DNA of 38,434 nucleotides from Acholeplasmataceae bacterium (GCA_007692425.1 RECG01000026.1:1-38434); one strand, 5' to 3'. Counted from the stretch's first letter, positions 1 through 35,659 are shown. Numbers and translations are program-made. The notes: a model not told the origin generated them from the sequence alone.

Positions 1-712
1 GAATGATTTCATTGCCTGTTCCAAGAGGAACTTCAGTCGTTTTAACAAAGTAATAATTGATACCGCCAGGTGTGTTTTCATCCCATTCTCCAGCCGCAAC
101 TGTGTTTGGAAGTCTTGTATTCGTTTTGTCAGGTACTTCTGTTCCAACAACACCTGGTGCCCCATCGGGAAGTTCATAAACGACTGTATAAGCTGTACCG
201 ACTTGAGCTCTGATGGAAATTCTTGCGGCATGAGAAGCAGCCATGCGAAGGTTAGTACCAGAAGTCACTGCACCAAGAGATGCTGTGTCAGTGTATGGTA
301 CATCGGAAAGCCACGTGACGCTATATGATAGCATACTGACACTTGTCCAAGCGACAGTTTCAACATTATTGGAGCGGAAGTAGACTGGGAGTCTCAAAAA
401 GCCAGATGTTGTTGTGTCACCTGAAAGCGTTTGAAACTGATAACCATTGGGTGAATAGACATTGTCAAGTCTCAGTTGGCCATAAAGTTCGGTGATGCGG
501 TCTTCGACCATGGCTGTCGTCAGCGTGGTCACCCAGGTGACTTCATCTAGGGAAATTTCCATACCGACATCGGCAACAATGTCCACTTCAAACGGTTGGA
601 TCGTCGCTGTATCTGTCAGCGTAAACCACGCAAATGTCGTAGTCCCAAGTGCGACGACTGTGAGTACGACCGTCAAAACGGAAAGCAATAATTTCTTCGT
701 AATTTGATTCAT
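1..712 (-). CDS. SipW/TasA-type secreted surface protein, 3' end outside window
   Basis: The open frame runs from ATG at 712 to the window edge (237 residues seen, no stop). GGAG lies 8 bases before the ATG. The N-terminus is a short basic stretch, a hydrophobic helix and then TTFAWFT at about residues 25-31, the pattern of SipW-dependent signal peptides in TasA/camelysin-type exported proteins. It is a paralogue of the preceding gene at 790-1752: both have G-T-x-TFAW, then a beta-strand-rich region with EISLD/QISLD and GYQFQT/GIHFQT at matching places. It is the third gene of the riboswitch-led operon, after a 77-base gap. Its codon use looks AT-richer than its neighbours. A matrix or surface fibre role is inferred from family and context; the exact function is unknown. 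Confidence 0.8.
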   Translation of the reverse strand, partial: MNQITKKLLLSVLTVVLTVVALGTTTFAWFTLTDTATIQPFEVDIVADVGMEISLDEVTWVTTLTTAMVEDRITELYGQLRLDNVYSPNGYQFQTLSGDTTTSGFLRLPVYFRSNNVETVAWTSVSMLSYSVTWLSDVPYTDTASLGAVTSGTNLRMAASHAARISIRAQVGTAYTVVYELPDGAPGVVGTEVPDKTNTRLPNTVAAGEWDENTPGGINYYFVKTTEVPLGTGNEII

Positions 713-789
713 GTTTGTTTCTCCTTTTCGATTTCTCTATTTTTTTTATGTTTTATGTTGACTCATCAAAGCTGAGTTGTTACCAAAAT

Positions 790-1752
790 CTAATCTGATG
801 CCGGATGCAAGGCTCTGAACTGGAGCTGGATCTTGACCCGGTCTCTTTCGACCGAATCAAATGCATCGGCATCCCAACCTTCTAGCCAGATGTTGACGGT
901 CACCTTGCCCTGTTTGACGGGGCGGTCACGTTCGTCAAATTCACCTGTTTCAACCAATCTGAGCACCATCGACTCGTTGTCCTCCGCCTGGTAGGGATTG
1001 CTTGGCAGTCCTTTTGTCAGACGATAGGATGTATCGGGGAAGACGGTCGGTAGTGTCAACATGTTGTTTTTCAAGATGTTGAAGTAATCAAAGGCGCCAT
1101 AAGGTGATCCGTATCCCCGCTCGGGATTCTCGCTAGGATCGTAGAGGAAGCGGATCAATTCATCTTCCGGACGTTGATCGTTCGGATTAAGATTGTCCAC
1201 ACGTTCGATCACGGCAATCCTGATCGCGTTGCTGGCATAATACATGGCCGTGGTGCCTTGTTCAACGATCATATCAGGACCGTTTCTAAAGGTTTCACGT
1301 GCCCGCCAGCTCACCCCTCTTGAGACCACATACGTTCCCTGCATGGTCGCGTCATACGTCACGAGGTGGTTGACATTGTTGACCAGGAAGATGGCATCTT
1401 GCTGGCTCGATGTCCGAAACCACAGGTCGAAGGAGACATAATGCTCGTTGGCGACACCCGGTTCGACACCCCTGAGTCCGCCTGTCTGGAAATGAATGCC
1501 GTCCATCGAGGTGATGTCGATCAAGGTGATGTTTTGGAAAATGGCTTCCATCTCTTGAATGTCAAGCGTGTTGGAGAAGTTTTCGCCGTCAAGTGAAATC
1601 TGCAATTCCTCACCGGTCGATGCCGTAATCGACAGTCCGTCGATGCTGTTGATGGTCGCCATGCTAATCCAGGCGAACGTCGCGGTACCGAAGATGATCG
1701 AGACAAAGAATAAGGACATCAATGAAAGGTACATCTTTTTGAACTTGCTCAT
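790..1752 (-). CDS. SipW/TasA-type secreted surface protein
   Basis: About 320 residues with a SipW-type signal: basic start, hydrophobic helix, then TATFAWIS near residue 25-32. The body has no further membrane helix. Near the C-terminus is VNIWLEGWDAD followed by a final strand with KIQLQF; the gene upstream has the matching IWLEGYDPD and KAQMNF, so the proteins share a C-terminal motif. Two ATG codons are in tandem (1755 and 1752). The GGAGG lies 3 bases from the first and 6 from the second, so 1752 is preferred. It starts 11 bases after the upstream stop, so the two are co-transcribed. No enzyme motif is visible. A secreted structural or matrix role is inferred. No SipW peptidase is in the window; it may lie beyond the left edge. 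Confidence 0.82.
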   Translation of the reverse strand: MSKFKKMYLSLMSLFFVSIIFGTATFAWISMATINSIDGLSITASTGEELQISLDGENFSNTLDIQEMEAIFQNITLIDITSMDGIHFQTGGLRGVEPGVANEHYVSFDLWFRTSSQQDAIFLVNNVNHLVTYDATMQGTYVVSRGVSWRARETFRNGPDMIVEQGTTAMYYASNAIRIAVIERVDNLNPNDQRPEDELIRFLYDPSENPERGYGSPYGAFDYFNILKNNMLTLPTVFPDTSYRLTKGLPSNPYQAEDNESMVLRLVETGEFDERDRPVKQGKVTVNIWLEGWDADAFDSVERDRVKIQLQFRALHPASD

Positions 1753-1766
1753 CATCCACCTCCGTC

Positions 1767-2483
1767 CTAATCGCCGAACATGTCGATCGAGAAGTTCATC
1801 TGGGCCTTGATCATGCCGCCCAGAACCTCATCGTTCGTATCGGGGTCATAGCCTTCGAGCCAAATCAGAACGCTGAACTTCTTGATATCGCCGGGTCGGA
1901 AGTTGGTGAATCGTTGTCTCGTGACAATCGTATCACTGAGGAAGTTGACAGCCGGTGGCATTTCCGGTGGATATTCAGGCAGGTTGCCGAACTCATCAGG
2001 TTGGTCCGGTTTCTGGTACATCGTCTGGACACCGTCCTCGATGACCAGGATCCGGATTGCTTCATCCAGGTTGTTATAAACATCGGTGATGCGGATGTGA
2101 TACGTGACATCAATGGTTTCCGTGCCCATGTTGCGGACGTAGAAGGTATAAGCCACGTATTCATAGTCAATGTCGGTGAAGTTACCTTCCGTTTCTTCGA
2201 CATCGCGCAGCTTGAGCCACGAATAGGTCATATCCCTGGCATCACGGATCGGTTCGGACATCAGGATCGAACTCGGACTCGTAAATGCTTCATCGGTCGA
2301 GATCTGGATGCCTCTGGTCAACGCGGCGTAATCGACTGTCATGACGAAGTTGCCGGCGTTCTGCCCGTAGAAGGTCGCGACCGTGAAGGCCAGTGAAAGC
2401 ATGCCGGTAATGATCACGCCGAGGGTGACGATACGGGTTTTGAGCATCTTCTTTCTGACACCCAGGACCCTTGATAGTCTCAT
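1767..2483 (-). CDS. Secreted TasA/camelysin-like protein, first gene after c-di-GMP riboswitch
   Basis: 238 residues. A basic N-terminus (with internal Met13 as a possible alternative start) is followed by a hydrophobic segment at about residues 18-40 and then FYGQNAGNF, a variant of the processing region in TasA-like proteins; it lacks the TFAW motif of the two downstream paralogues. The remainder is polar and beta-rich. VLIWLEGYDPD near the C-terminus matches the next gene's IWLEGWDAD. AAAGGA lies about 12 bases before the ATG, a long spacing. It is the first coding region after the riboswitch-terminator at 2538-2633, so it and the two following genes should be made only when the terminator is disabled. 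It could be an anchor or minor subunit of the same surface structure; that is inference. Confidence 0.78.
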   Translation of the reverse strand: MRLSRVLGVRKKMLKTRIVTLGVIITGMLSLAFTVATFYGQNAGNFVMTVDYAALTRGIQISTDEAFTSPSSILMSEPIRDARDMTYSWLKLRDVEETEGNFTDIDYEYVAYTFYVRNMGTETIDVTYHIRITDVYNNLDEAIRILVIEDGVQTMYQKPDQPDEFGNLPEYPPEMPPAVNFLSDTIVTRQRFTNFRPGDIKKFSVLIWLEGYDPDTNDEVLGGMIKAQMNFSIDMFGD

Positions 2484-2537
2484 GCTTTCTTCACATCCTT
2501 TCCCCCCGTCTCGGATGCTGGTTTTCGATAAATATAC

Positions 2538-2572
2538 AAAAAGCCAGCGTCATCAAATCAATGACAGCTGGC
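2538..2572 (-). terminator. Intrinsic terminator of the c-di-GMP riboswitch
   Basis: On the minus strand, GCCAGC then GTCAT (one bulged T between) pairs with ATGAC-GCTGGC across a 7-base loop, and TTTTT follows directly. The 5' arm reuses the last conserved bases of the aptamer (GGTAGCCAGC) and its P1 strand. Folding of the aptamer and of the terminator are therefore mutually exclusive, which predicts an ON switch: ligand binding lets transcription continue. Confidence 0.88.
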
Positions 2573-2633
2573 TACCATTTCAGGCCCTATAGCTTTGCGC
2601 CGCCGGGTTTCCCCGGGTTTGCCTTTTACATTG
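2559..2633 (-). promoter_or_regulatory. Cyclic di-GMP-I (GEMM-I) riboswitch aptamer
   Basis: The minus strand carries GEMM-I signatures in order: P1 strand CAATG, then AAAAGGCAAACC, a CGGG/CCCG stem capped by a GAAA tetraloop, GCGCAAAGC, an AGGGCCT receptor-like stretch, ATGGTAGCCAGC, and the closing P1 strand CATTG. From remembered alignment with the Vibrio Vc2 aptamer, the ligand-contact G20 (G before GCAAACC) and A47 (first A of CAAAG) are kept, which favours c-di-GMP over cyclic AMP-GMP. The P3 arm is unusually short: CUAU/AUGG closing a roughly 10-base loop. The site precedes the secreted-protein operon and is followed by an overlapping terminator. Confidence 0.9.
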
Positions 2634-2659
2634 CACGTACAAATCCATACTACACCCGT

Positions 2660-2688
2660 ATTTTAACCCAAGTCGGATGCTTTGTCAA
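2660..2688 (-). promoter_or_regulatory. Sigma-70-type promoter of the riboswitch operon
   Basis: TTGACA (2683-2688) and TAAAAT (2660-2665) on the minus strand are separated by exactly 17 bases. Predicted initiation near 2653 would place the aptamer about 20 bases into the transcript. The promoter lies just after the stop of the upstream GGDEF/EAL gene, so the surface-protein operon has its own start. Confidence 0.85.
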
Positions 2689-2704: not shown

Positions 2705-4141
2705 TTATGTCAGTTGTTTCCAATGCTCGGTCGCGATGAAGCCCCGGAGCGCTTCTGATGATAGGGGTTTACTAAAGTAAAAACCTTGCATGATGTCGAT
2801 GCCATACTCTCTCGCGGCATCCATCATTTCTTTCGTTTCAATGACCTCGCAGATGACTTTATACGCGTTCCGCTTGGCAAATTCCAGCAACATCGTCGCG
2901 AATCTGGCCTTCATGTAAGACTCTTCCGCCTTCAAAAACTCGTTGTCGAGTTTGATGATGTCGATGTCTAGCGCTTCGGCTTTTGAAAGGGTCGAGTAAT
3001 CGAGTCCGAAACCATCGATGGCGATCAAGAAACCCATCTCTTTCAATTTCTTCAAATTGGTGAAAATCGTCTCCTGCTTTTCAAACAAGGCGAACTCGAT
3101 GATTTCAAGAATGATGTTCTCGGCATTGACACGGTATTTCTTGAGCATTCTTTGGAACTCCATGAAGAGATGCTCGTTCATGAGCTGCTTGGGACTCAGG
3201 TTCAAGGAAACCAGGATGTTTTGCTTGGGAAACTCCTGTTTGAGCTCCTGGTAGGTCTTGATGACCGTTTCGAGTCCCCAAAGACCGATCCAGTGGATGT
3301 CACCGGACTGTTCCATGACACCGAGAAATTTAAACGGCGACAAGACGCCATGTTCGGGATGGTTCCAACGGATCAGCGCTTCGACGCCGAACACCTCGCC
3401 TTTCGCCAGGTCGATCATCGGATGATAATAGAGTTGGAACTCCTTGTGCTGGATGGCATGCTTGATCTGGTAATAATACTCGATGTGGTCGCCGTCGGCC
3501 TCGCTCATTTCATCAGAATAGACGCGGATGGCGTTCCCGCCGGCCTTCTTGGTGATGTAGGTGGCGATTTTCAACGAACTGATCATGTCCTTGAGCGTGT
3601 TACCATGGACGGGATAAAAGGCGATGGCGATCGACCCGGTCGCGTTGACCTGCGTGTCACCGAACAGCTTGATTGGCTTGGCGATCGCCGTCTTGAGCTT
3701 GTTGGCGAGTTCGACACTGACCGTGCGGTCGTATTCCGCCGGCAGGAAGACCAAAAACTCGTCAGCCTGCAAACGGGCGATCTTGATGCCTTTCGGCAAC
3801 GCGGCATCGACATTCTTGACAATGCGTTCCAAAATCTTTTCCGATTCTTCCAGTCCGAAGGCGTTGACAAAGTCCCTGAACTTGTCAAGGTCGATGTATA
3901 GGAGCGTGAAGGTCGCTTCTTTCCCAGACTTCGCGATGTAGGACGTGATGATGCTGGTGATGGCCGAACGGGACAAGACCCCTTCCATCAACAACTCACG
4001 TTCCTCAAGGTAACGCTTGCGCTCCTTGAAAAACCCGCGCGCCAGAAAATAGATGGCCGCGCCCATAAGCAAGAGCACGATGATGGACATGATGATGGTT
4101 TGTGCTTCTGTCAATTGCAGCTGCATGACGTATGATCTCAT
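2705..4141 (-). CDS. GGDEF-EAL domain protein, both active sites degenerate
   Basis: 478 residues: one N-terminal membrane helix (about 14-36), a GGDEF-like domain (about 75-215) and an EAL domain (about 225-470). The cyclase signature is QADEF at 125-129 instead of GGDEF, so synthesis of c-di-GMP is not expected. The EAL domain keeps EALIRW (254-259), the NLSP Asn, LEIIE, the IKLD Lys, the E-x-x-E pair and MQGF. Its loop reads IDGFGLDYS where active enzymes have DDFGTGYS, so one metal-binding Asp is Gly. A weak phosphodiesterase or a c-di-GMP-binding receptor is therefore likely. ATG at 4141 overlaps the upstream stop as ATGA and has GGGAGGT 7 bases before it, so it is translationally coupled to the phosphodiesterase and probably its partner. 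Confidence 0.9.
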   Translation of the reverse strand: MRSYVMQLQLTEAQTIIMSIIVLLLMGAAIYFLARGFFKERKRYLEERELLMEGVLSRSAITSIITSYIAKSGKEATFTLLYIDLDKFRDFVNAFGLEESEKILERIVKNVDAALPKGIKIARLQADEFLVFLPAEYDRTVSVELANKLKTAIAKPIKLFGDTQVNATGSIAIAFYPVHGNTLKDMISSLKIATYITKKAGGNAIRVYSDEMSEADGDHIEYYYQIKHAIQHKEFQLYYHPMIDLAKGEVFGVEALIRWNHPEHGVLSPFKFLGVMEQSGDIHWIGLWGLETVIKTYQELKQEFPKQNILVSLNLSPKQLMNEHLFMEFQRMLKKYRVNAENIILEIIEFALFEKQETIFTNLKKLKEMGFLIAIDGFGLDYSTLSKAEALDIDIIKLDNEFLKAEESYMKARFATMLLEFAKRNAYKVICEVIETKEMMDAAREYGIDIMQGFYFSKPLSSEALRGFIATEHWKQLT

Positions 4142-6732
4142 CGTTTGACCTCCCGGATCCGCACCACGCGTTCGACAGTGCGGGTTTTTTCGATATTGAA
4201 TGCTTCAATCAATTTGATGGCTTCATCCTTGACCACCGGTGGTGAAATCAGATAGCCTTGGATGATGTTGCATCCGCCCCTGACCACGAAATGGTTCTGA
4301 CGGTTGTTTTCAACCCCTTCACCGATGACCTCGAGACCGACATTTTTTGCCAGGCTCGACACCATGGACACGATTGCCCGTGAGTGGGTGTCGTTGTCAA
4401 TGTTCTTGATGAAGGCGCGGTCGATCTTGATGGCGGTGATCGGCAGATCCCGCAAATACTGCAGGGACGAATAGCCGGTACCGAAGTCATCGAGATGAAC
4501 CTCGAAGCCGTATTTACGCAATAACCTGAGCTTCTCGATGACCAGGTCGAAGGACGTGATTAGGAAACTTTCCGTGATTTCCAGGCTGATGCTGCCCTTC
4601 TTGAGCTCATATTGCTCGAAGACCGCGATCACCTCGTTGACGAATCCGGCCTGCAAGATCTGGACGGGTGAGACATTGATCGAAATGTTGACGCCGTACT
4701 TCTCAAGTTCCTTGGCTGCCATGAACGTCTCATGCAGGACGATGCGTCCGATGTCGATGATCATGTTGTTTTGCTCGGCCATCTGGATGAACTTGAAAGG
4801 CGATTCACTGGCATACTTGGGATTGTTCCAACGGATCAAGGCCTCGAAGCCGGTAATCTTCTCAAGCTCGTTGTCATACTGGGGCTGGAAGACCATGTAG
4901 AATTCGTTCTTGTTGATGGCGTTGGCCAGATCCTGTTCCATCATCTGATCACGCGAAGCGACCTGTCCGAGATTGACGTCATAGTCGAAAAAGGTGTGGA
5001 CGTTCGATTGCTTGGCGTGATTGAGTGCGAGCATCGCATTCTCATAAGCCTGGTCGGGTGTCAACAATGAATATTTCCCGGCGTCGATATGGAAAACGCC
5101 GATTTTGATTTCGATATAGATGATGTTTCGTTCGACCGCCAACGGCTGGTCGAAAGCGATCAGCACCTTGTCGATCCAACGCTTGACCCAGCTTTCATCT
5201 TCAAGGTCTTCAAACAAGATCGTGAAATTGTCAAGCTCGGTGTTATATAGTTTGGCCGGATATCCGTCCAGGCTGTCATGGGTGACTTCGGCCACCATGC
5301 TGAGCACCTTGCCGATGTTGCGTTCGCCCAACAACAGTTCCAGTTTCGAGAAGGCGACGATGTCAAAGACGACAAGCGCGTTCCTCTGGTTCAGACGGTA
5401 TGGGTCTGCGAACATCTCACGCAGGTCTTGCTTGAGCTGGTTGTAGTTCGGTATGTTGGTGTTGACATTAAACATGGCCAGACCCTTGTACTCGTCAAAG
5501 CGTCCCTCAACCGCGGTCACATCATCGCCGATCAACAGGTAGCCCCGTCCCGAACGGATCGGGATGAAATGGATGTAGACCGATTCGGCGGCCAGCTGGA
5601 AGATGGCCGTGAAGGCGACTTGACGACGGATGATTTCCTCGATGGTCTGGTCGGAATACTTCTCCTTGATCTGGAAATCGGACACGGTACGGTAATTGCG
5701 GTAATCACCCAACAACTTCTTGAAACTCTTGTTATACGATCGGATGACGCCACGGCTGCTGATTTTCAAGATGAACGGCTTGGCGTAATAAAGCGTCAGC
5801 CTGGCGTTTTCGATGTCGTTGTTCTTGGCCTCGATGACCTTGTATAAAATCAACAGGCTCACGGCGAAGATGATAAATACGACAAAGAAGATGGCGATCA
5901 GAATGGTGTTCAGATAGGCAAACGAGGCAATCACGATTTCTTCTTCGTACATGCCGACCAGATACAGTTCCCGCTCGGAGAAACCATCGGACATGGGATT
6001 GAACACCAAATAACTCATCACGCCGAACAACCGGGTTTCGACAATCCCCCTGTCACGTGCCAGCATGATGTCCTTGATGCCGTCGATAAATACTTCCGAT
6101 TGGCCTTCGTCACGCAGATAATCGTAAAAGAAACGCTGATCGGCGTCAGGATGGTTTTGATAGAAGACATAGTTATCTCTCGAGATGATGAAATAATGCG
6201 GGGCCATCTGCTCGTCAATCTCAAAGATGGTCGCCAGATAGGCATCCGCCTCGACATAAGCAATGTAGTCATCCGCCCTGAAGACCACATAGGTCGTTTC
6301 ATCAGGATGGCCGTTGAAGACATTGCTGAAGACATAGACGGAAATATTTTGTTCGAAGTCCTGACGGTTCAAGAACGTCGTATAGGCATAGGTCGTCCCG
6401 TCCTGGACCAGGCCGGCATCACTCAAACGGGCGAATCCGGTAAAACGGACCGTACCGACAAACAGGTCATCGAGCAAAGCGGTCAGTTCTTCGACCGGAT
6501 CGAGCCCTGCCTGTTCGATTTCAAAAATATACTGGCTGAAACGGGCATGATCAAAGGCAAGTTGCGAGTTCAAACGCGTGGCCACGCCCAGATGGATTTT
6601 TTCCAAGCTGTCCATGGCCTGGTCGCGGACAAAATTGGCGCTGATCTGATTGTATGCGAAAACAAGTGTGCCCATCAAAAGGGCATACGTGAAGACAAAT
6701 GACAAGATCAGCTTGTAGACAAAAGGTTTCAA
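4138..6732 (-). CDS. Membrane sensor c-di-GMP phosphodiesterase (degenerate GGDEF, intact EAL)
   Basis: 864 residues. Membrane helices at about 6-28 and 272-298 flank an extracytoplasmic sensor region of about 240 residues. A PAS-like stretch follows (about 315-410), then a degenerate GGDEF domain (signature position TELDNF, 498-503) and a full EAL domain. The EAL domain has FEALIRW (629-635), INVSP, LEITES (717-722), DDFGTGYSSL (from 748), IKIDRAF, GEGVEN and QGYL, the complete metal and catalytic set, so hydrolysis of c-di-GMP to pGpG is expected. The start codon is TTG at 6732, with AAAGGAG 10 bases upstream; no better ATG is present. The gene overlaps the following GGDEF/EAL gene by 4 bases. 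The ligand of the sensor region is unknown. Confidence 0.92.
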   Translation of the reverse strand: MKPFVYKLILSFVFTYALLMGTLVFAYNQISANFVRDQAMDSLEKIHLGVATRLNSQLAFDHARFSQYIFEIEQAGLDPVEELTALLDDLFVGTVRFTGFARLSDAGLVQDGTTYAYTTFLNRQDFEQNISVYVFSNVFNGHPDETTYVVFRADDYIAYVEADAYLATIFEIDEQMAPHYFIISRDNYVFYQNHPDADQRFFYDYLRDEGQSEVFIDGIKDIMLARDRGIVETRLFGVMSYLVFNPMSDGFSERELYLVGMYEEEIVIASFAYLNTILIAIFFVVFIIFAVSLLILYKVIEAKNNDIENARLTLYYAKPFILKISSRGVIRSYNKSFKKLLGDYRNYRTVSDFQIKEKYSDQTIEEIIRRQVAFTAIFQLAAESVYIHFIPIRSGRGYLLIGDDVTAVEGRFDEYKGLAMFNVNTNIPNYNQLKQDLREMFADPYRLNQRNALVVFDIVAFSKLELLLGERNIGKVLSMVAEVTHDSLDGYPAKLYNTELDNFTILFEDLEDESWVKRWIDKVLIAFDQPLAVERNIIYIEIKIGVFHIDAGKYSLLTPDQAYENAMLALNHAKQSNVHTFFDYDVNLGQVASRDQMMEQDLANAINKNEFYMVFQPQYDNELEKITGFEALIRWNNPKYASESPFKFIQMAEQNNMIIDIGRIVLHETFMAAKELEKYGVNISINVSPVQILQAGFVNEVIAVFEQYELKKGSISLEITESFLITSFDLVIEKLRLLRKYGFEVHLDDFGTGYSSLQYLRDLPITAIKIDRAFIKNIDNDTHSRAIVSMVSSLAKNVGLEVIGEGVENNRQNHFVVRGGCNIIQGYLISPPVVKDEAIKLIEAFNIEKTRTVERVVRIREVKR

Positions 6733-6952: not shown

Positions 6953-8476
6953 TCATTGTGTGTTTTTGTTAAGTTTTCGTTTTTTTTGATTGTACAAGCC
7001 TTTATCACACTGCCGGATCATCTGATCGAAAACAGCATCGCCGCCCTTGACGACCGTGTAGCCGTATGCCGCTGAAACCATGATATTCCGGCCGTTGATT
7101 TCAATCGTTTCCTCACACGCTTTGACCATGTCTTCAAGCAACTTTTCCACCTGTCTGGCATCGGTCATGTCCGGCATGATGACGACAAACTCGTCACCGC
7201 CGAGACGACCCACCAGACCATGGTGACCGGTCATATCAAGCAAACGTGCAGCCAAGATGAACAAGGTCTGGTCGCCGATATCATGACCGTACTGGTCGTT
7301 GACGGCCTTGAAGCGGTCCATGTCGATCAACGCCATGGTCAAGCTCCGGTTTTGTTCGACGGCCTGTTTGACCACCTGGTCGAAATATTGTCGTAAATAG
7401 CGTCGGTTGGGCAGTTCGGTCAAGACGTCATGGTTGGCCAGAAACTCGAGTTCCTTCTTGGCTTCGCTCATCAAGGTGATGTCATTGACGCTTGACAACA
7501 AATAAGACTCACCTTCGATCATGACCTCGTTCGACGACAACAGGACCGTCACCGGGTGACCGTCCTTGTGTCTGAAGACAGTCTCATGACCTTGGATATG
7601 TGCGGTCTCTTGAATCGTTTGAATCACCCGTTGCCGTTCACTTGCATCCATCCAGATGCCCAAATCACGAATATGCCGACCGATCGATTCATGCTTGTCG
7701 TAGCCAAAAGTCTTCACGAAAGCATCATTGACATCGGCGATCAGGCCATCGGTGGAACGTGTCAGCAAAATGGCGTAAGGCGCGGCATAAAACGAGGTGA
7801 CAAACTTGTTTTCTTCAGACACCACCTCGATTTCGAGACGACGGGTGACGAGGTTGATGAAACTGATGGTCAACAAGACGATCATGGCATTGAAAACATG
7901 ATGATAGAGCGCATCAAGGTAGGCCGGCGACTCAAATCCATTGTCGCCAGCGACTGCGACGCGAATGACCAGACGTGCCAGATTGATGACGACAAACAAG
8001 CTTGCTGTCACTTTGATGAAAAGGGTGATTTTCTGATAAACCGGCTTGATGGCATGGTTGAGAAACACCATCAGGATACCGAGTAAAAAGGCAGCGAACA
8101 TCGTGAACAGGATGGCCCTGGTCATGATGTCGGGCACCACGAATGTGAACAAGGTGAATAACAAGACAAACCCCGCCACGACCAGCAAGGTTGCCCGGTT
8201 GATTGTCTCTCTGCCAAAAAAACGGGTCATGCCGACATAAGCGATGAGCGCGCCGATGACGATGAGCATGTCCGCCAAAAAAACGAAAAAGCGACTGTCA
8301 AAATAACCGCTTCCAATCATGATGAGATGGCCCAGTGAAAGCAACGAGATACCGATGATCCAATGGCTGATGCCCTGATAACGGGCATGATGATGAAACC
8401 AGCTGATGGTCAGGGCCAGGATGCTGATACCTTGGATGATGATGGAAAAGACAAGCAACATGATGGGATCGGTCAT
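6953..8476 (-). CDS. Membrane PAS-GGDEF diguanylate cyclase
   Basis: 507 residues. The first 210 hold about seven hydrophobic helices, an integral-membrane sensor rather than a single-pass anchor. A PAS domain (about 222-340) ends in a linker leading to the GGDEF domain with NHDVLTELPNRR (from 348), the DMDRFKAVND metal/substrate motif (from 385) and an intact RLGGDEF (424-430). It should make c-di-GMP from two GTP. The positions where the RxxD inhibitory site normally lies, just before GGDEF, do not read R and D, so classic product inhibition is not expected. It is the only clearly active cyclase in the window and sits next to the phosphodiesterase and the riboswitch operon. Its promoter carries a perfect inverted repeat. 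Confidence 0.93.
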   Translation of the reverse strand: MTDPIMLLVFSIIIQGISILALTISWFHHHARYQGISHWIIGISLLSLGHLIMIGSGYFDSRFFVFLADMLIVIGALIAYVGMTRFFGRETINRATLLVVAGFVLLFTLFTFVVPDIMTRAILFTMFAAFLLGILMVFLNHAIKPVYQKITLFIKVTASLFVVINLARLVIRVAVAGDNGFESPAYLDALYHHVFNAMIVLLTISFINLVTRRLEIEVVSEENKFVTSFYAAPYAILLTRSTDGLIADVNDAFVKTFGYDKHESIGRHIRDLGIWMDASERQRVIQTIQETAHIQGHETVFRHKDGHPVTVLLSSNEVMIEGESYLLSSVNDITLMSEAKKELEFLANHDVLTELPNRRYLRQYFDQVVKQAVEQNRSLTMALIDMDRFKAVNDQYGHDIGDQTLFILAARLLDMTGHHGLVGRLGGDEFVVIMPDMTDARQVEKLLEDMVKACEETIEINGRNIMVSAAYGYTVVKGGDAVFDQMIRQCDKGLYNQKKRKLNKNTQ

Positions 8477-8531
8477 GACACGTCCTCTTGAGAAGCAAAT
8501 GACAAATGTATTGTTTTGATAGCATCATTTT

Positions 8532-8560
8532 ATCATATAAAAGGACATTTTTACATGCAA
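8532..8560 (-). promoter_or_regulatory. Promoter of the PAS-GGDEF cyclase gene
   Basis: TTGCAT (8555-8560) and TATGAT (8532-8537) on the minus strand are 17 bases apart, about 55 bases before the ATG at 8476. Confidence 0.7.
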
Positions 8561-8570
8561 ATCGTTTGCA
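8556..8570. promoter_or_regulatory. Inverted-repeat operator candidate over the cyclase -35
   Basis: TGCAAA-CGA-TTTGCA is a perfect 6+3+6 dyad. It overlaps five of the six bases of the predicted -35 box, so a bound dimeric protein would block the promoter. The sequence resembles LacI-family sites with a central CG but is not a clean cre. The regulator is unknown. Confidence 0.6.
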
Positions 8571-8595
8571 ATCAGCAGACAAAAGCTTGATGGGA

Positions 8596-9012
8596 CTATA
8601 TGCCGATGACCTTGATCAACACCCGTTTGGCACGCATGCCGTCATATTCACCATAAAAGATTTGTTCCCAAGGCCCGAAGTCAAGCGTGCCATCGGTGAT
8701 CGCACAGACCACTTCACGACCCATGAGTTGCCGCTTGATGTGGGCATCAGCGTTGTCTTCATAGCCGTTGTGTTCATACTGGTCGTGCGGTTTTTCAGGC
8801 GCGACCTTTTCCAAAAAACGTTCAAAATCACGATGCAGGCCACGTTCATCGTCATTGATGAAGACACTGGCCGTGATGTGCATCGCGTTGACCAGCACGA
8901 GACCTTCCTTGACACCGGCATCGTCGATGGCCTTTTGGACCTCGCGGGTGATGTTGAGATAGGCCCGGCGGGTCGGTGTCTTGAAGGTCAGTTCTTTACG
9001 ATAGGATTTCAT
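8596..9012 (-). CDS. YjbQ/UPF0047 family protein
   Basis: 138 residues from ATG 9012, which has AGAGGTGATT just upstream; a longer frame from TTG 9033 would put that site inside the gene. YjbQ family marks are [10 protein letters not shown] (from about 45), [14 protein letters not shown] (from about 87) and [13 protein letters not shown] (from about 113), with the conserved His and Asp/Glu of this small beta-rich trimer-forming family. Members have been reported to have weak thiamine phosphate synthase activity, but the physiological role is unsettled. It is a single gene on the minus strand, back to back with the TetR gene at 9172. It has no visible link to the c-di-GMP genes. Confidence 0.9.
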
Positions 9013-9105
9013 GGCAATCACCTCTACTTTCAAGCATACCTTATCAGGGTCGTCAATGCAAGTTTCCTCACGACATCATCTGTCTTCAACCATGACCGAA
9101 AAGGA

Positions 9106-9134
9106 TTGACAGCGCCTTCAAAAGGGTGTATACT
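9106..9134 (+). promoter_or_regulatory. Promoter of the TetR-ABC exporter operon
   Basis: TTGACA (9106-9111) and TATACT (9129-9134) with a 17-base spacer, about 38 bases before the TetR gene's ATG. Confidence 0.88.
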
Positions 9135-9141
9135 ACCATTA

Positions 9142-9155
9142 TGACAAGGTTGTCA
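9142..9155. promoter_or_regulatory. Likely TetR-family autoregulatory operator
   Basis: TGACAA-GG-TTGTCA is a perfect 6+2+6 palindrome starting 7 bases after the -10, at the expected transcription start. This is where TetR-family repressors commonly bind to control their own operon. Confidence 0.75.
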
Positions 9156-12334: not shown

Positions 12335-12802
12335 AGGATGTTGTTCAAAATCAAGCAGTTGTCGCTTCAAGGCCGTGCCGGCTTTGCCGCCATAGCCGGT
12401 CATTGAACCGTCTTTGCCAATCACCCGGTGACAGGGGATGACGAGGGCGACCGGATTGCGTTTGCAGGCCTGACCGACCGCCCGGGTGGTCTTGGGCCGA
12501 CCAATCTTGTCGGCGATGGCCTGATACGTGGCGGTCTTGCCGTATGGAATGTCTAACAGGGCCTGCCAGACAGCTTGTTGAAACGGTGTCCCACCGATAA
12601 AAGAGACAGGCAGATCGAACACCTGGCGGGTTTTGTCAACATATTCTGAAAGCTGGACGAGCACCATGCTAACGGTGTCATCATCGTCGCTTGTTTCCAT
12701 TGTTGACACAAAAGAGAGGCTGACCAGTCTGCCGTCTTGTGTCTCAAACCCGAGCGGGCCGAAGCGCGTCTCGAGAAACCCTTTTTTCGTGCTCATCGAC
12801 AT
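12332..12802 (-). CDS. ogt: Methylated-DNA--protein-cysteine methyltransferase
   Basis: 156 residues. The C-terminal catalytic domain has GTPFQQAVWQALLDIPYG (from about 71), the DNA-recognition helix with TTRAVGQA and the active-site IPCHRVI with acceptor Cys124. It transfers alkyl groups from O6-alkylguanine to itself, a single-use repair step. The N-terminal domain is short, as in Ogt proteins. No ribosome site is obvious for ATG 12802 or ATG 12796. It is the last gene of the operon coming from PckG, with a 52-base gap, so read-through expression or a weak internal promoter is likely. Confidence 0.93.
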   Translation of the reverse strand: MSMSTKKGFLETRFGPLGFETQDGRLVSLSFVSTMETSDDDDTVSMVLVQLSEYVDKTRQVFDLPVSFIGGTPFQQAVWQALLDIPYGKTATYQAIADKIGRPKTTRAVGQACKRNPVALVIPCHRVIGKDGSMTGYGGKAGTALKRQLLDFEQHP

Positions 12803-12854
12803 GGCTTGTCATGCAGGCGAGAAACCATCATCACGTCAGTATACGCCAAATGTC

Positions 12855-13370
12855 TTATCGGCCGGGACCGATCCTAAAGCCGCTTCTTGTCTTGTTGTGC
12901 AACATCTGGTCGATCATCACGGTCAACGCGAGCAGGAAGGCCTCATGCTCGTCCAAATAAATCGTGATTTCGTAGGAATCACCCCAGGAAAGATACTTCT
13001 TGCGGACATCGATGGCCGGAGTCGCCCCCATGCTCACCGAAAACTGATGGGCATAGAAGTCACCTTCCGCCACGAATTCACCGTAATCGCTCTCGATGTC
13101 GATCTTCGGACGAAAAAACGAGAAACGGCGGCGGATGGTCGCCACTTTCCGATCTTCCGCATCATAGAGGAAGAAACTGGGCATCACTTTGAACATGCGG
13201 CGCTTCAAGGTGAACAACCTGGCGTTGTCAGCGGTTCTGACCAGGTCGACCTTGGGTCTGAGCGCAAACATCTTGCCCTCGCAATGATAGATGGGCGTCT
13301 GCTTTTCATCATAAATCTTGTAGCGGTCCCGCAAGGCGAAGACCTTTTGTTTCAGATAAAAACTTTTCAT
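12855..13370 (-). CDS. LURP-one-related (YxjI-like, tubby-type) protein
   Basis: 171 residues with the short repeated strands of the LURP-one/tubby C-terminal fold: LKQKVFALRDRYKIYDE at the start, then alternating basic and aromatic strands such as KMFALRPKVDL and RRFSFFRPKIDIES. The YxjI-like members are common in Bacillota and have no settled function; phospholipid binding or scramblase-like roles have been proposed for the superfamily. AGGAGGG stands 6 bases before the ATG. It follows Kbl by 28 bases in the same direction. It lacks a signal peptide or membrane helix. Confidence 0.82.
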   Translation of the reverse strand: MKSFYLKQKVFALRDRYKIYDEKQTPIYHCEGKMFALRPKVDLVRTADNARLFTLKRRMFKVMPSFFLYDAEDRKVATIRRRFSFFRPKIDIESDYGEFVAEGDFYAHQFSVSMGATPAIDVRKKYLSWGDSYEITIYLDEHEAFLLALTVMIDQMLHNKTRSGFRIGPGR

Positions 13371-13398
13371 TGTTAACCCTCCTGTGGGTGATGATGGA

Positions 13399-34357: not shown

Positions 34358-34387
34358 AAAAAAGTGTGAGCAATCACACTTTTTTTT
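34358..34387. terminator. Bidirectional intrinsic terminator after groEL
   Basis: AAAAAAGTGTGA-GCAA-TCACACTTTTTT, a long perfect stem flanked by A and T tracts. It serves groESL on the plus strand and the gene ending at 34386 on the minus strand. Confidence 0.92.
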
Positions 34388-34940
34388 ATCGTGTGTCCGG
34401 CATGGTTTTCAATCTGAACCAGGCACTGATCAACATGATGACAAAGGCCGCGGCAAGCGCACTCCATTTGAACATGGTCATCCACGGGACCAGCCAGTCA
34501 ATCACCCAGGTCCTCGCCGGATAACGGCTCATGACCAGGACGGCACCTGCGTTTTCCAAAAGATCAAACAGGAATCCGGCTAACGGCACGAGTACCAGCA
34601 GACGTTTCTTCCGATCTTGTTCCCACGGCTTGAGCAGCCAGGCGGTCGTCGGCACCAAAAACATCACATAGGCCAGGGGCCAGGCAAGGTCGAAGGTGTA
34701 ACGGGCGTGGATGTAATAGGCGCGTCCTTCCACGCCATAGGCTTCCGCCATGGCATACAGATCACTTGCCGTGTAGAAAAATGACGTGTCAGGGGTGGGT
34801 TCACCTTTCAGGATTTTCGATGAGCGGACCGCTTCTGCCGGCAACACCCAGATCATGAAGACGGTGAAAAGCAACAATCCGAAGCCGACAATCAGACGGT
34901 TGGTCAGTTTGAAACACAAACGAGTGAAACGATCCAACAT
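34386..34940 (-). CDS. Uncharacterised four-helix membrane protein
   Basis: 184 residues from ATG 34940, with GAGGTGA 5 bases upstream; the longer frame overlaps the TraX-like gene and has unlike composition. There are four hydrophobic helices (about 15-36, 83-103, 115-138, 155-176) and, between the first two, a 45-residue extracytoplasmic segment with PDTSFFYTASDLYAMAEAYG and GRAYYIHARYTFD. I recall similar uncharacterised proteins in Bacillota but no function. It starts 14 bases after the TraX-like gene's stop, so the two form a pair. Confidence 0.75.
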   Translation of the reverse strand: MLDRFTRLCFKLTNRLIVGFGLLLFTVFMIWVLPAEAVRSSKILKGEPTPDTSFFYTASDLYAMAEAYGVEGRAYYIHARYTFDLAWPLAYVMFLVPTTAWLLKPWEQDRKKRLLVLVPLAGFLFDLLENAGAVLVMSRYPARTWVIDWLVPWMTMFKWSALAAAFVIMLISAWFRLKTMPDTR

Positions 34941-34954
34941 GAGGTCACCTCTTC

Positions 34955-35659
34955 TCAAAGCCAATAGGCGATCAGCATCAAGATGCCGATATGAAGCGGA
35001 TAATAGACATAAAAGAACCAGCGGTTGCTTTTCCCTCTTCTGCCATTGTAGGCGAACAACATCAAAAGCGCGATGATCGCCAGCAATTGCAGCTGCATGA
35101 AACCATAATAAGGGATGGCGGGCATGACGAGCGGCCCATAGACGTACAATAATGTCAGGGTAACACCCGCCAACAGTTGCCATTGGACACGACGCAAGAT
35201 GCCAAAAGCGATGATCAGCAACACGCCGTACATGCCGTAAGGCGTGCCCAGCCAACCGGCCAAGACCACGATAAGCAAGGCAAAGGGACGGAGCCAGACG
35301 CGTTTCTCATGAAGCAAGACAAGGGCGCTGAGCCCGAAAAACAGCGGCAGGATGAAATTGACTGACGAACCGGTGCCTGTGAAAGGCAACACGCTGTAAT
35401 TGATGTGCGTATAAAGATAATAACCAACCAGGAAAACTTCAATCAACAAGGTGTACAGCATCAGACGCAGCCAATAGGCAAAACGGTTACGGGTATGGTG
35501 AAAACCTTCGGCGATCATGAACGCAAAAAGGGGAAAGGCAATCCGGCCGATCCCGCGCAGCAGCCAGTGAAGAAGGGTGGTCGAATGGATCAGGTAGACC
35601 GCAATATGGTCTATGGTCATGGTGATGACGCCGATCCATTTCAATTGGCTTGCATTCAT
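34955..35659 (-). CDS. TraX-family membrane protein
   Basis: 234 residues from ATG 35659 (AAGGAGG 6 bases before). About eight hydrophobic helices. TraX marks are LKWIGVITMTIDHIAVYL at the N-terminus, RGIGRIAFPLFAFMIAEGFHHT after helix 2, and FYVYYPLHIGILMLIAYW at the C-terminus. F-plasmid TraX acetylates pilin; chromosomal relatives in Bacillota are presumed membrane acyltransferases with unknown targets. The conserved Asp-His in TIDHIA and the YYPLH His are present. No conjugation genes are near, so a chromosomal cell-envelope role is more likely. Confidence 0.88.
   Translation of the reverse strand: MNASQLKWIGVITMTIDHIAVYLIHSTTLLHWLLRGIGRIAFPLFAFMIAEGFHHTRNRFAYWLRLMLYTLLIEVFLVGYYLYTHINYSVLPFTGTGSSVNFILPLFFGLSALVLLHEKRVWLRPFALLIVVLAGWLGTPYGMYGVLLIIAFGILRRVQWQLLAGVTLTLLYVYGPLVMPAIPYYGFMQLQLLAIIALLMLFAYNGRRGKSNRWFFYVYYPLHIGILMLIAYWL

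Follow-up and report, generated by a model that had tools for sequence, protein, structure and literature searches.

In Bacillus subtilis, the tapA-sipW-tasA operon places exported proteins and a dedicated SipW-type signal peptidase in one transcription unit; to our knowledge, it includes neither a GTPase or DUF2357 gene nor a riboswitch. Surface structures can also be commanded at the RNA level by cyclic di-GMP (c-di-GMP), as in the type IV pilus and adhesin switches of Clostridioides difficile, where class II provides the ON switches and class I acts in the OFF direction (PMC11477304). A class-I switch ahead of surface genes, an ON direction and tandem copies are all kinds of arrangement that are already known, the triple tandem of Bacillus thuringiensis being one case. 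A third described system, built on an McrB-like GTPase and a DUF2357 partner, forms the core of McrBC and CoCoNuT systems, and the clade CoCoPALM was named, and left for later publication, in the CoCoNuT paper (PMC11090510). Here, we examine a 38,434-nucleotide (nt) stretch of Acholeplasmataceae bacterium (GCA_007692425.1, RECG01000026.1:1-38434), hereafter the window, in which a class-I c-di-GMP riboswitch precedes three tandem minus-strand open reading frames for exported proteins, named A, B and C. The switch and its genes are arranged as follows.

2660-2688, minus strand: sigma-70-type promoter, TTGACA, 17-nt spacer, TAAAAT (11 of 12 consensus matches).
2560-2633, minus strand: c-di-GMP-I (GEMM-I) riboswitch aptamer (RF01051, 60.4 bits, with covariation in 27 and in 134 homologues).
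2538-2573, minus strand: intrinsic terminator, AGCCAGCUGUCAUUGAUUUGAUGACGCUGGCU followed by U5 (hairpin 2573-2542, U tract 2542-2538), its 5' arm overlapping the aptamer 3' end.
1767-2483, minus strand: protein A, 238 amino acids (aa), N-terminal membrane helix and beta-rich exported domain with IWLEGYD; conserved family.
790-1755, minus strand: protein B, 321 aa, N-terminal membrane helix, AW motif and beta-rich exported domain with IWLEGWD; conserved family.
2-712, minus strand: protein C, 5' part, 237 aa, TTFAWFT after the membrane helix; 28-43% identity to C orthologues.

The aptamer is the sole Rfam match within the window (cmscan), covering the full-length RF01051 model at 2633-2560 on the minus strand with 60.4 bits (E-value 1.5e-9) against a gathering score of 35 bits; this Infernal search bears out the GEMM-I aptamer of the original prediction, which had been made from the sequence alone. 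Covariation points the same way: across 27 homologues, 94.3% of cells were paired and double changes numbered 65, compared with 20.6 in shuffles, and across 134 sequences the corresponding values were 322 and 104. Upstream, the consensus promoter that had been proposed is present, with TTGACA at 2688 and TAAAAT ending at 2660, and a promoter with at least 10 of 12 matches occurs within 100 nt upstream of 69% of 111 first aptamers in relatives versus 5.7% of shuffles. The terminator hairpin, folded alone, reaches -18.2 to -18.7 kcal/mol (z = -4.2 against shuffles). As predicted, its 5' arm reuses the end of the aptamer, 14 nt in all (2573-2560), and so takes up the aptamer's own 3' strands of P2 (AGCU, 2569-2566) and P1 (CAUU, 2563-2560). 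The two structures are thus mutually exclusive, and because the terminator reuses the aptamer's 3' strand, ligand binding should allow transcription, which would make this an ON switch.

An aptamer-overlapping terminator is a general rule across the order. In 133 of 146 distinct aptamers from relatives, the 5' arm of the first terminator starts inside the conserved AGCCAGYU, and a stricter terminator detector recovered the overlap in 117/144 real tails versus 41/1440 dinucleotide-shuffled tails. The claim of an ON geometry therefore stands as geometry, well beyond the single locus for which it had been made. A terminator without aptamer overlap was seen at 8 of the 146 aptamers; among the class-I aptamers with non-overlapping terminators, those at L136, L157, L170 and L178 may be OFF or translational switches.

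At the ligand-selectivity position, G20, the window aptamer carries a G, which supports c-di-GMP as its ligand over cyclic AMP-GMP; an A at this position favours cyclic AMP-GMP in other bacteria. The position is G in 140 and A in 7 of 150 homologues aligned with a covariance model that was itself built from G-only sequences. In aptamer structure, in its G at the selectivity position and in its terminator platform, the window riboswitch is typical of its class, resembling other RF01051 switches including the B. thuringiensis triple tandem; it differs from them in occurring in wall-less Acholeplasmatales and in front of an export operon that fits the CoCoPALM type. Aptamers with A at G20 were observed before the same operon at L186:8874-8954(-), L187:3950-4027, L189:3964-4041, L113:7070-7150, L125:7079-7156 and L115:922-996, the first three of these loci also being without EAL neighbours, and such A20 aptamers on a conserved operon may represent a ligand switch. 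Within one triple tandem array (L039:8782-9108), the selectivity position is G in aptamers 1 and 2 and A in aptamer 3.

Class-I aptamers were found in 34 of the 61 genomes searched, amounting to 102 hits in 85 arrays. The downstream gene could be read for 79 of the arrays: 26 lie before orthologues of gene A, and 33 before genes for different exported proteins, in which A(Y/F)W or AW follows a membrane helix. The second aptamer of the window's genome (C23:58184) also precedes exported proteins with this motif. Its leader (L001:1501-1690) has a long imperfect terminator followed by a possible second one, which could use its 5' arm to pair with the 3' part of the first, and is perhaps a two-stage switch. 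In tandem arrays, each unit generally has its own terminator, as in the tandem switches known elsewhere. One relative (L015/L037, G016:C2:259425-259876) has four consecutive class-I aptamers with one terminator apiece, whereas a survey of tandem riboswitches lists 347 doublets and 12 triplets for class I, triplets being the largest listed (PMC9481103).

The original prediction described the genes behind the switch as three tandem SipW/TasA-type proteins. The tandem exported reading frames are there, and a SipW-like peptidase is encoded in the operon of relatives, but no TasA or camelysin match was found by profile or by fold. Peptidase_M73/TasA (PF12389) did not match A or B and scored 12.7 bits on C (cut-off 22.5), over the N-terminal helix only, and sequence-profile searches of the PDB returned no TasA structure for A or B. 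AlphaFold2 models of A and B (predicted local distance difference test scores of 92.3 and 89.7) place a beta-rich domain behind a membrane helix; TasA is absent among the Foldseek/PDB matches listed for either model. In these Foldseek searches, B had no confident PDB fold match and A had only weak matches with low template-modelling scores, including collagen-binding adhesin domains. Membership of A, B and C in the TasA/camelysin family was rejected on the basis of these profile and fold searches. As in B. subtilis, exported proteins share an operon with a SipW-type peptidase, here in relatives, so the export logic is SipW-like; without TasA homology in A and B, 'TasA-type' is valid by analogy only. 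By the same analogy, matrix production is a plausible role of the operon.

The IWLEG[YW]D motif, said to be shared by all three proteins, is present in A and B and not visible in C, whose motif region lies past the end of the contig. The window and contig C1 of a 29-contig, 1.45-Mb assembly are one and the same, and gene C is incomplete because that contig ends inside it; C orthologues are about 290-320 aa long and do carry the motif. Neither riboswitch operon of this genome is complete, each being cut off by a contig end (window position 1 and the end of G000:C23), and a repeat or surface-gene strain variation may lie behind both breaks.

The rest of the operon was followed in 80 relatives' loci with organism names, fetched through gene E. 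With few exceptions their labels read Acholeplasmataceae, Acholeplasmatales, Anaeroplasmataceae, Izemoplasmatales or unclassified Bacilli, Bacillales, Firmicutes or Tenericutes, and one reads Omnitrophota; the operon is found in the named strains Acholeplasma oculi, A. granularum, Peloplasma aerotolerans and Paracholeplasma vituli. The gene order A-B-C-D-E-F-(G)-H is near-invariant in the main group and reads as one or more aptamers, the exported proteins A, B and C, a SipW-like peptidase (D), a membrane-anchored McrB-like GTPase (E), a DUF2357 coiled-coil protein (F) and a second signal peptidase (H). Aptamers lie just upstream of A in 31 of 32 complete A-to-F operons, one to four in each (19 single, 9 double, 2 triple and 1 quadruple). 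In sampled families of the class beyond this group, the linkage of aptamer and operon is present in several and absent in others, and a relative of the same genus as the window (L033/L079) has a fragmentary copy of the operon. At 13 loci, a paralogous operon of A-B-C-D-E-G plus a giant surface protein has neither an upstream aptamer nor F. Two paralogous copies stand head to tail at L071, L072, L074, L075, L080, L081 and L095, with riboswitches only on the downstream copy and no gene F in the upstream one.

The identities of these further genes come from the relatives. D is a SipW-like signal peptidase by TIGR02228 (58.1 bits, above the cut-off of 51.85), scoring 65.6 bits against NF046067, below that model's cut-off of 190; H is a second signal peptidase (S26), so that two peptidase genes accompany the GTPase and DUF2357 genes in the near-invariant order. 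E, of about 512 aa, has a hydrophobic N-terminal segment, the Walker motifs LEGISGTGKT and LDEMNLAR, and GTAN[KR]DDS, which holds the NxD motif, in 79 of 79 sequences; its profile matched McrB in the PDB (E-value 1.9e-4). In A1, the hydrophobic segment of E is followed by a charged heptad-like stretch, with no FtsB/DivIC Pfam match. F carries DUF2357 (PF09823), the McrC N-terminal domain, at 42.6-47.4 bits against a cut-off of 23.3 (E-value 1.9e-12), followed by a long charged C-terminal region; the A. oculi F had no Pfam DUF2357 match. Pfam searches of F found no nuclease family, including the PD-(D/E)xK of McrC-like subunits, and a restriction nuclease of the McrBC type IV kind in F was rejected on that ground.

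Judged by domain content and gene order, the GTPase/DUF2357/peptidase set fits a CoCoPALM-type module. CoCoPALM, as characterized in PMC11090510, likewise has an McrB-like GTPase with the NxD motif, a DUF2357 coiled-coil partner and an association with signal peptidases, and the FtsB-like membrane and coiled-coil N-terminus of its GTPase may have a counterpart in the hydrophobic segment and heptad-like stretch of E. Unlike the description in the cited passages of that paper, the present operon has a c-di-GMP riboswitch and three conserved exported proteins and is accompanied by a phosphodiesterase pair; its F, moreover, has no nuclease domain. No published link between CoCoPALM and c-di-GMP was found in the open-access literature, which also returned nothing on DUF2357 with SipW, nor on Acholeplasma with a riboswitch and c-di-GMP.

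Upstream of the switch, three genes for c-di-GMP proteins adjoin it in the window.

2705-4141, minus strand: degenerate GGDEF-EAL protein, 478 aa (Pfam EAL 206 bits, GGDEF 60 bits).
4138-6732, minus strand: membrane GGDEF-EAL phosphodiesterase, 864 aa (Pfam, motifs, conserved synteny).
6953-8476, minus strand: membrane PAS-GGDEF diguanylate cyclase, 507 aa (Pfam GGDEF 140 bits, PAS; intact RLGGDEF).

The original description of the locus was incomplete in this respect, leaving out both these adjoining enzymes and the remainder of the operon that relatives reveal, with its McrB-like GTPase and DUF2357 protein. In the 864-aa protein, the EAL motifs are intact (EALIRW, LDDFGTGYSS) and GGDEF is degenerate. 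The 478-aa protein keeps EALIR, with DDFG changed to IDGFG and GGDEF to QADEF; that many orthologues have kept this DD-to-DG change suggests that the protein is a conserved reader or regulator of c-di-GMP rather than one that is simply decaying. The pair formed by the degenerate EAL protein and the phosphodiesterase is retained before gene A in 22 fetched loci, and in genomes with both operon copies it precedes the aptamer-less paralogous copy. Together with the cyclase, these proteins are likely to set the local level of c-di-GMP or to sense it. Elsewhere in the window, candidate open reading frames at 8506-9144, 12633-13376 and 34386-35255 had no Pfam family at an E-value of 0.001.

We propose that the minus-strand segment 2688-2538 acts as an attenuation switch. 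Transcription would start at the TTGACA/TAAAAT promoter, and the nascent RNA would fold the c-di-GMP-I aptamer. In the ligand-free state, the downstream arm would capture the 3' strand of the aptamer (AGCCAGCUGUCAU) and so form the terminator before gene A, whereas with c-di-GMP bound the strand would be held in P1 and P2, no terminator would form and RNA polymerase would enter the operon. Three co-exported beta-rich surface proteins would then be made and, if the synteny of relatives applies, so would the SipW-like peptidase, the membrane-anchored McrB-like AAA+ GTPase, its DUF2357 coiled-coil partner and the second signal peptidase, in which case the McrBC-derived GTPase and the peptidases may process and assemble the exported proteins. 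A structure on the cell surface would thereby be synthesized, processed and assembled when c-di-GMP is high. We consider this model of an ON switch, an export operon and neighbouring c-di-GMP enzymes likely as a whole, its ligand response, direction, operon continuation and surface role of the GTPase being the parts that we infer from sequence comparison. In its favour, the terminator fold of the window RNA (-36.9 kcal/mol) lies 14.5 kcal/mol below the best fold with the aptamer enforced (-22.4 kcal/mol); termination would accordingly be the default, and the ligand must act co-transcriptionally. Several points weigh against the model. The window's contig stops inside gene C, two queries did not detect gene E in the window's own assembly, and neither the window nor that assembly yielded a gene for a SipW-type or other signal peptidase, so the continuation of this operon is drawn from relatives. 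The fold comparison is thermodynamic and leaves out co-transcriptional kinetics. Furthermore, the class-I switches of C. difficile are OFF (PMC11477304), which indicates that regulatory direction depends on the platform.

That last precedent, together with the eight relatives' aptamers whose terminators do not overlap, is what would favour an OFF switch, in which the ligand promotes termination and the operon belongs to the low-c-di-GMP state. We regard this as very improbable, given that in the window and in 133 of 146 homologues the terminator takes its 5' arm from the 3' strand of the aptamer itself, and that a separate antiterminator is neither needed nor seen in the window. Slimmer still is the chance that the switch answers mainly to 3',3'-cyclic AMP-GMP: the seven homologues with A at G20 lie upstream of the same operon, but the window aptamer and 140 of 150 homologues have G, and the adjoining cyclase and phosphodiesterases are of the c-di-GMP type.

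The protein side of the model has its own alternatives. If the McrB-like GTPase and DUF2357 protein formed a type IV restriction-like defence module, merely co-transcribed with surface genes, this would agree with their place at the core of McrBC and CoCoNuT systems (PMC11090510) and with the match of E to the PADLOC phage-defence candidate model PDC-M26A (E-value 2e-38 or better, over part of the length). Yet F has no nuclease domain, E is membrane-anchored, both lie between a SipW-like peptidase and further exported proteins in a near-invariant order across many genera and under a c-di-GMP switch, and the riboswitch-free paralogous operon has E without F; we therefore find a defence module unlikely. 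It is also rather unlikely that A, B and C belong to the TasA family as genuine matrix fibre proteins: the membrane helix followed by AW and the SipW-like peptidase of relatives are what one would expect of them, but no Peptidase_M73/TasA match exceeded the cut-off and no TasA structure appeared in the profile or Foldseek searches of the PDB.

Returning to the proposed ON switch ahead of an export operon, the comparison with C. difficile holds in that surface structures would come under c-di-GMP at the RNA level; here, however, a class-I aptamer has the ON geometry (PMC11477304 describes that direction for class II), and the genes behind it are not those of a type IV pilus. What appears to be new, no report having been found in the open-access literature, is c-di-GMP control of a CoCoPALM-type operon, its conservation across wall-less Bacilli and the non-defence role that this implies. 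Going further, we tentatively suggest, as a possibility that we hold at somewhat less than even chances, that in wall-less Bacilli an McrBC-derived, membrane-anchored GTPase and its DUF2357 partner have taken on a new use as the motor for assembling surface fibres under c-di-GMP command and with dependence on SipW, CoCoPALM then being a surface organelle and not an anti-phage system. Since the operon is present in named strains, the claim is testable. For CoCoPALM, to which its naming paper (PMC11090510) assigns no function, the regulatory context speaks for a part in assembling surface structures and against one in defence, and the flag that defence-annotation tools place on the GTPase as a phage-defence candidate may mislead. 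More broadly, nearly all class-I switches of the wall-less Acholeplasmatales stand ahead of genes for exported proteins, which indicates how these bacteria may use c-di-GMP.

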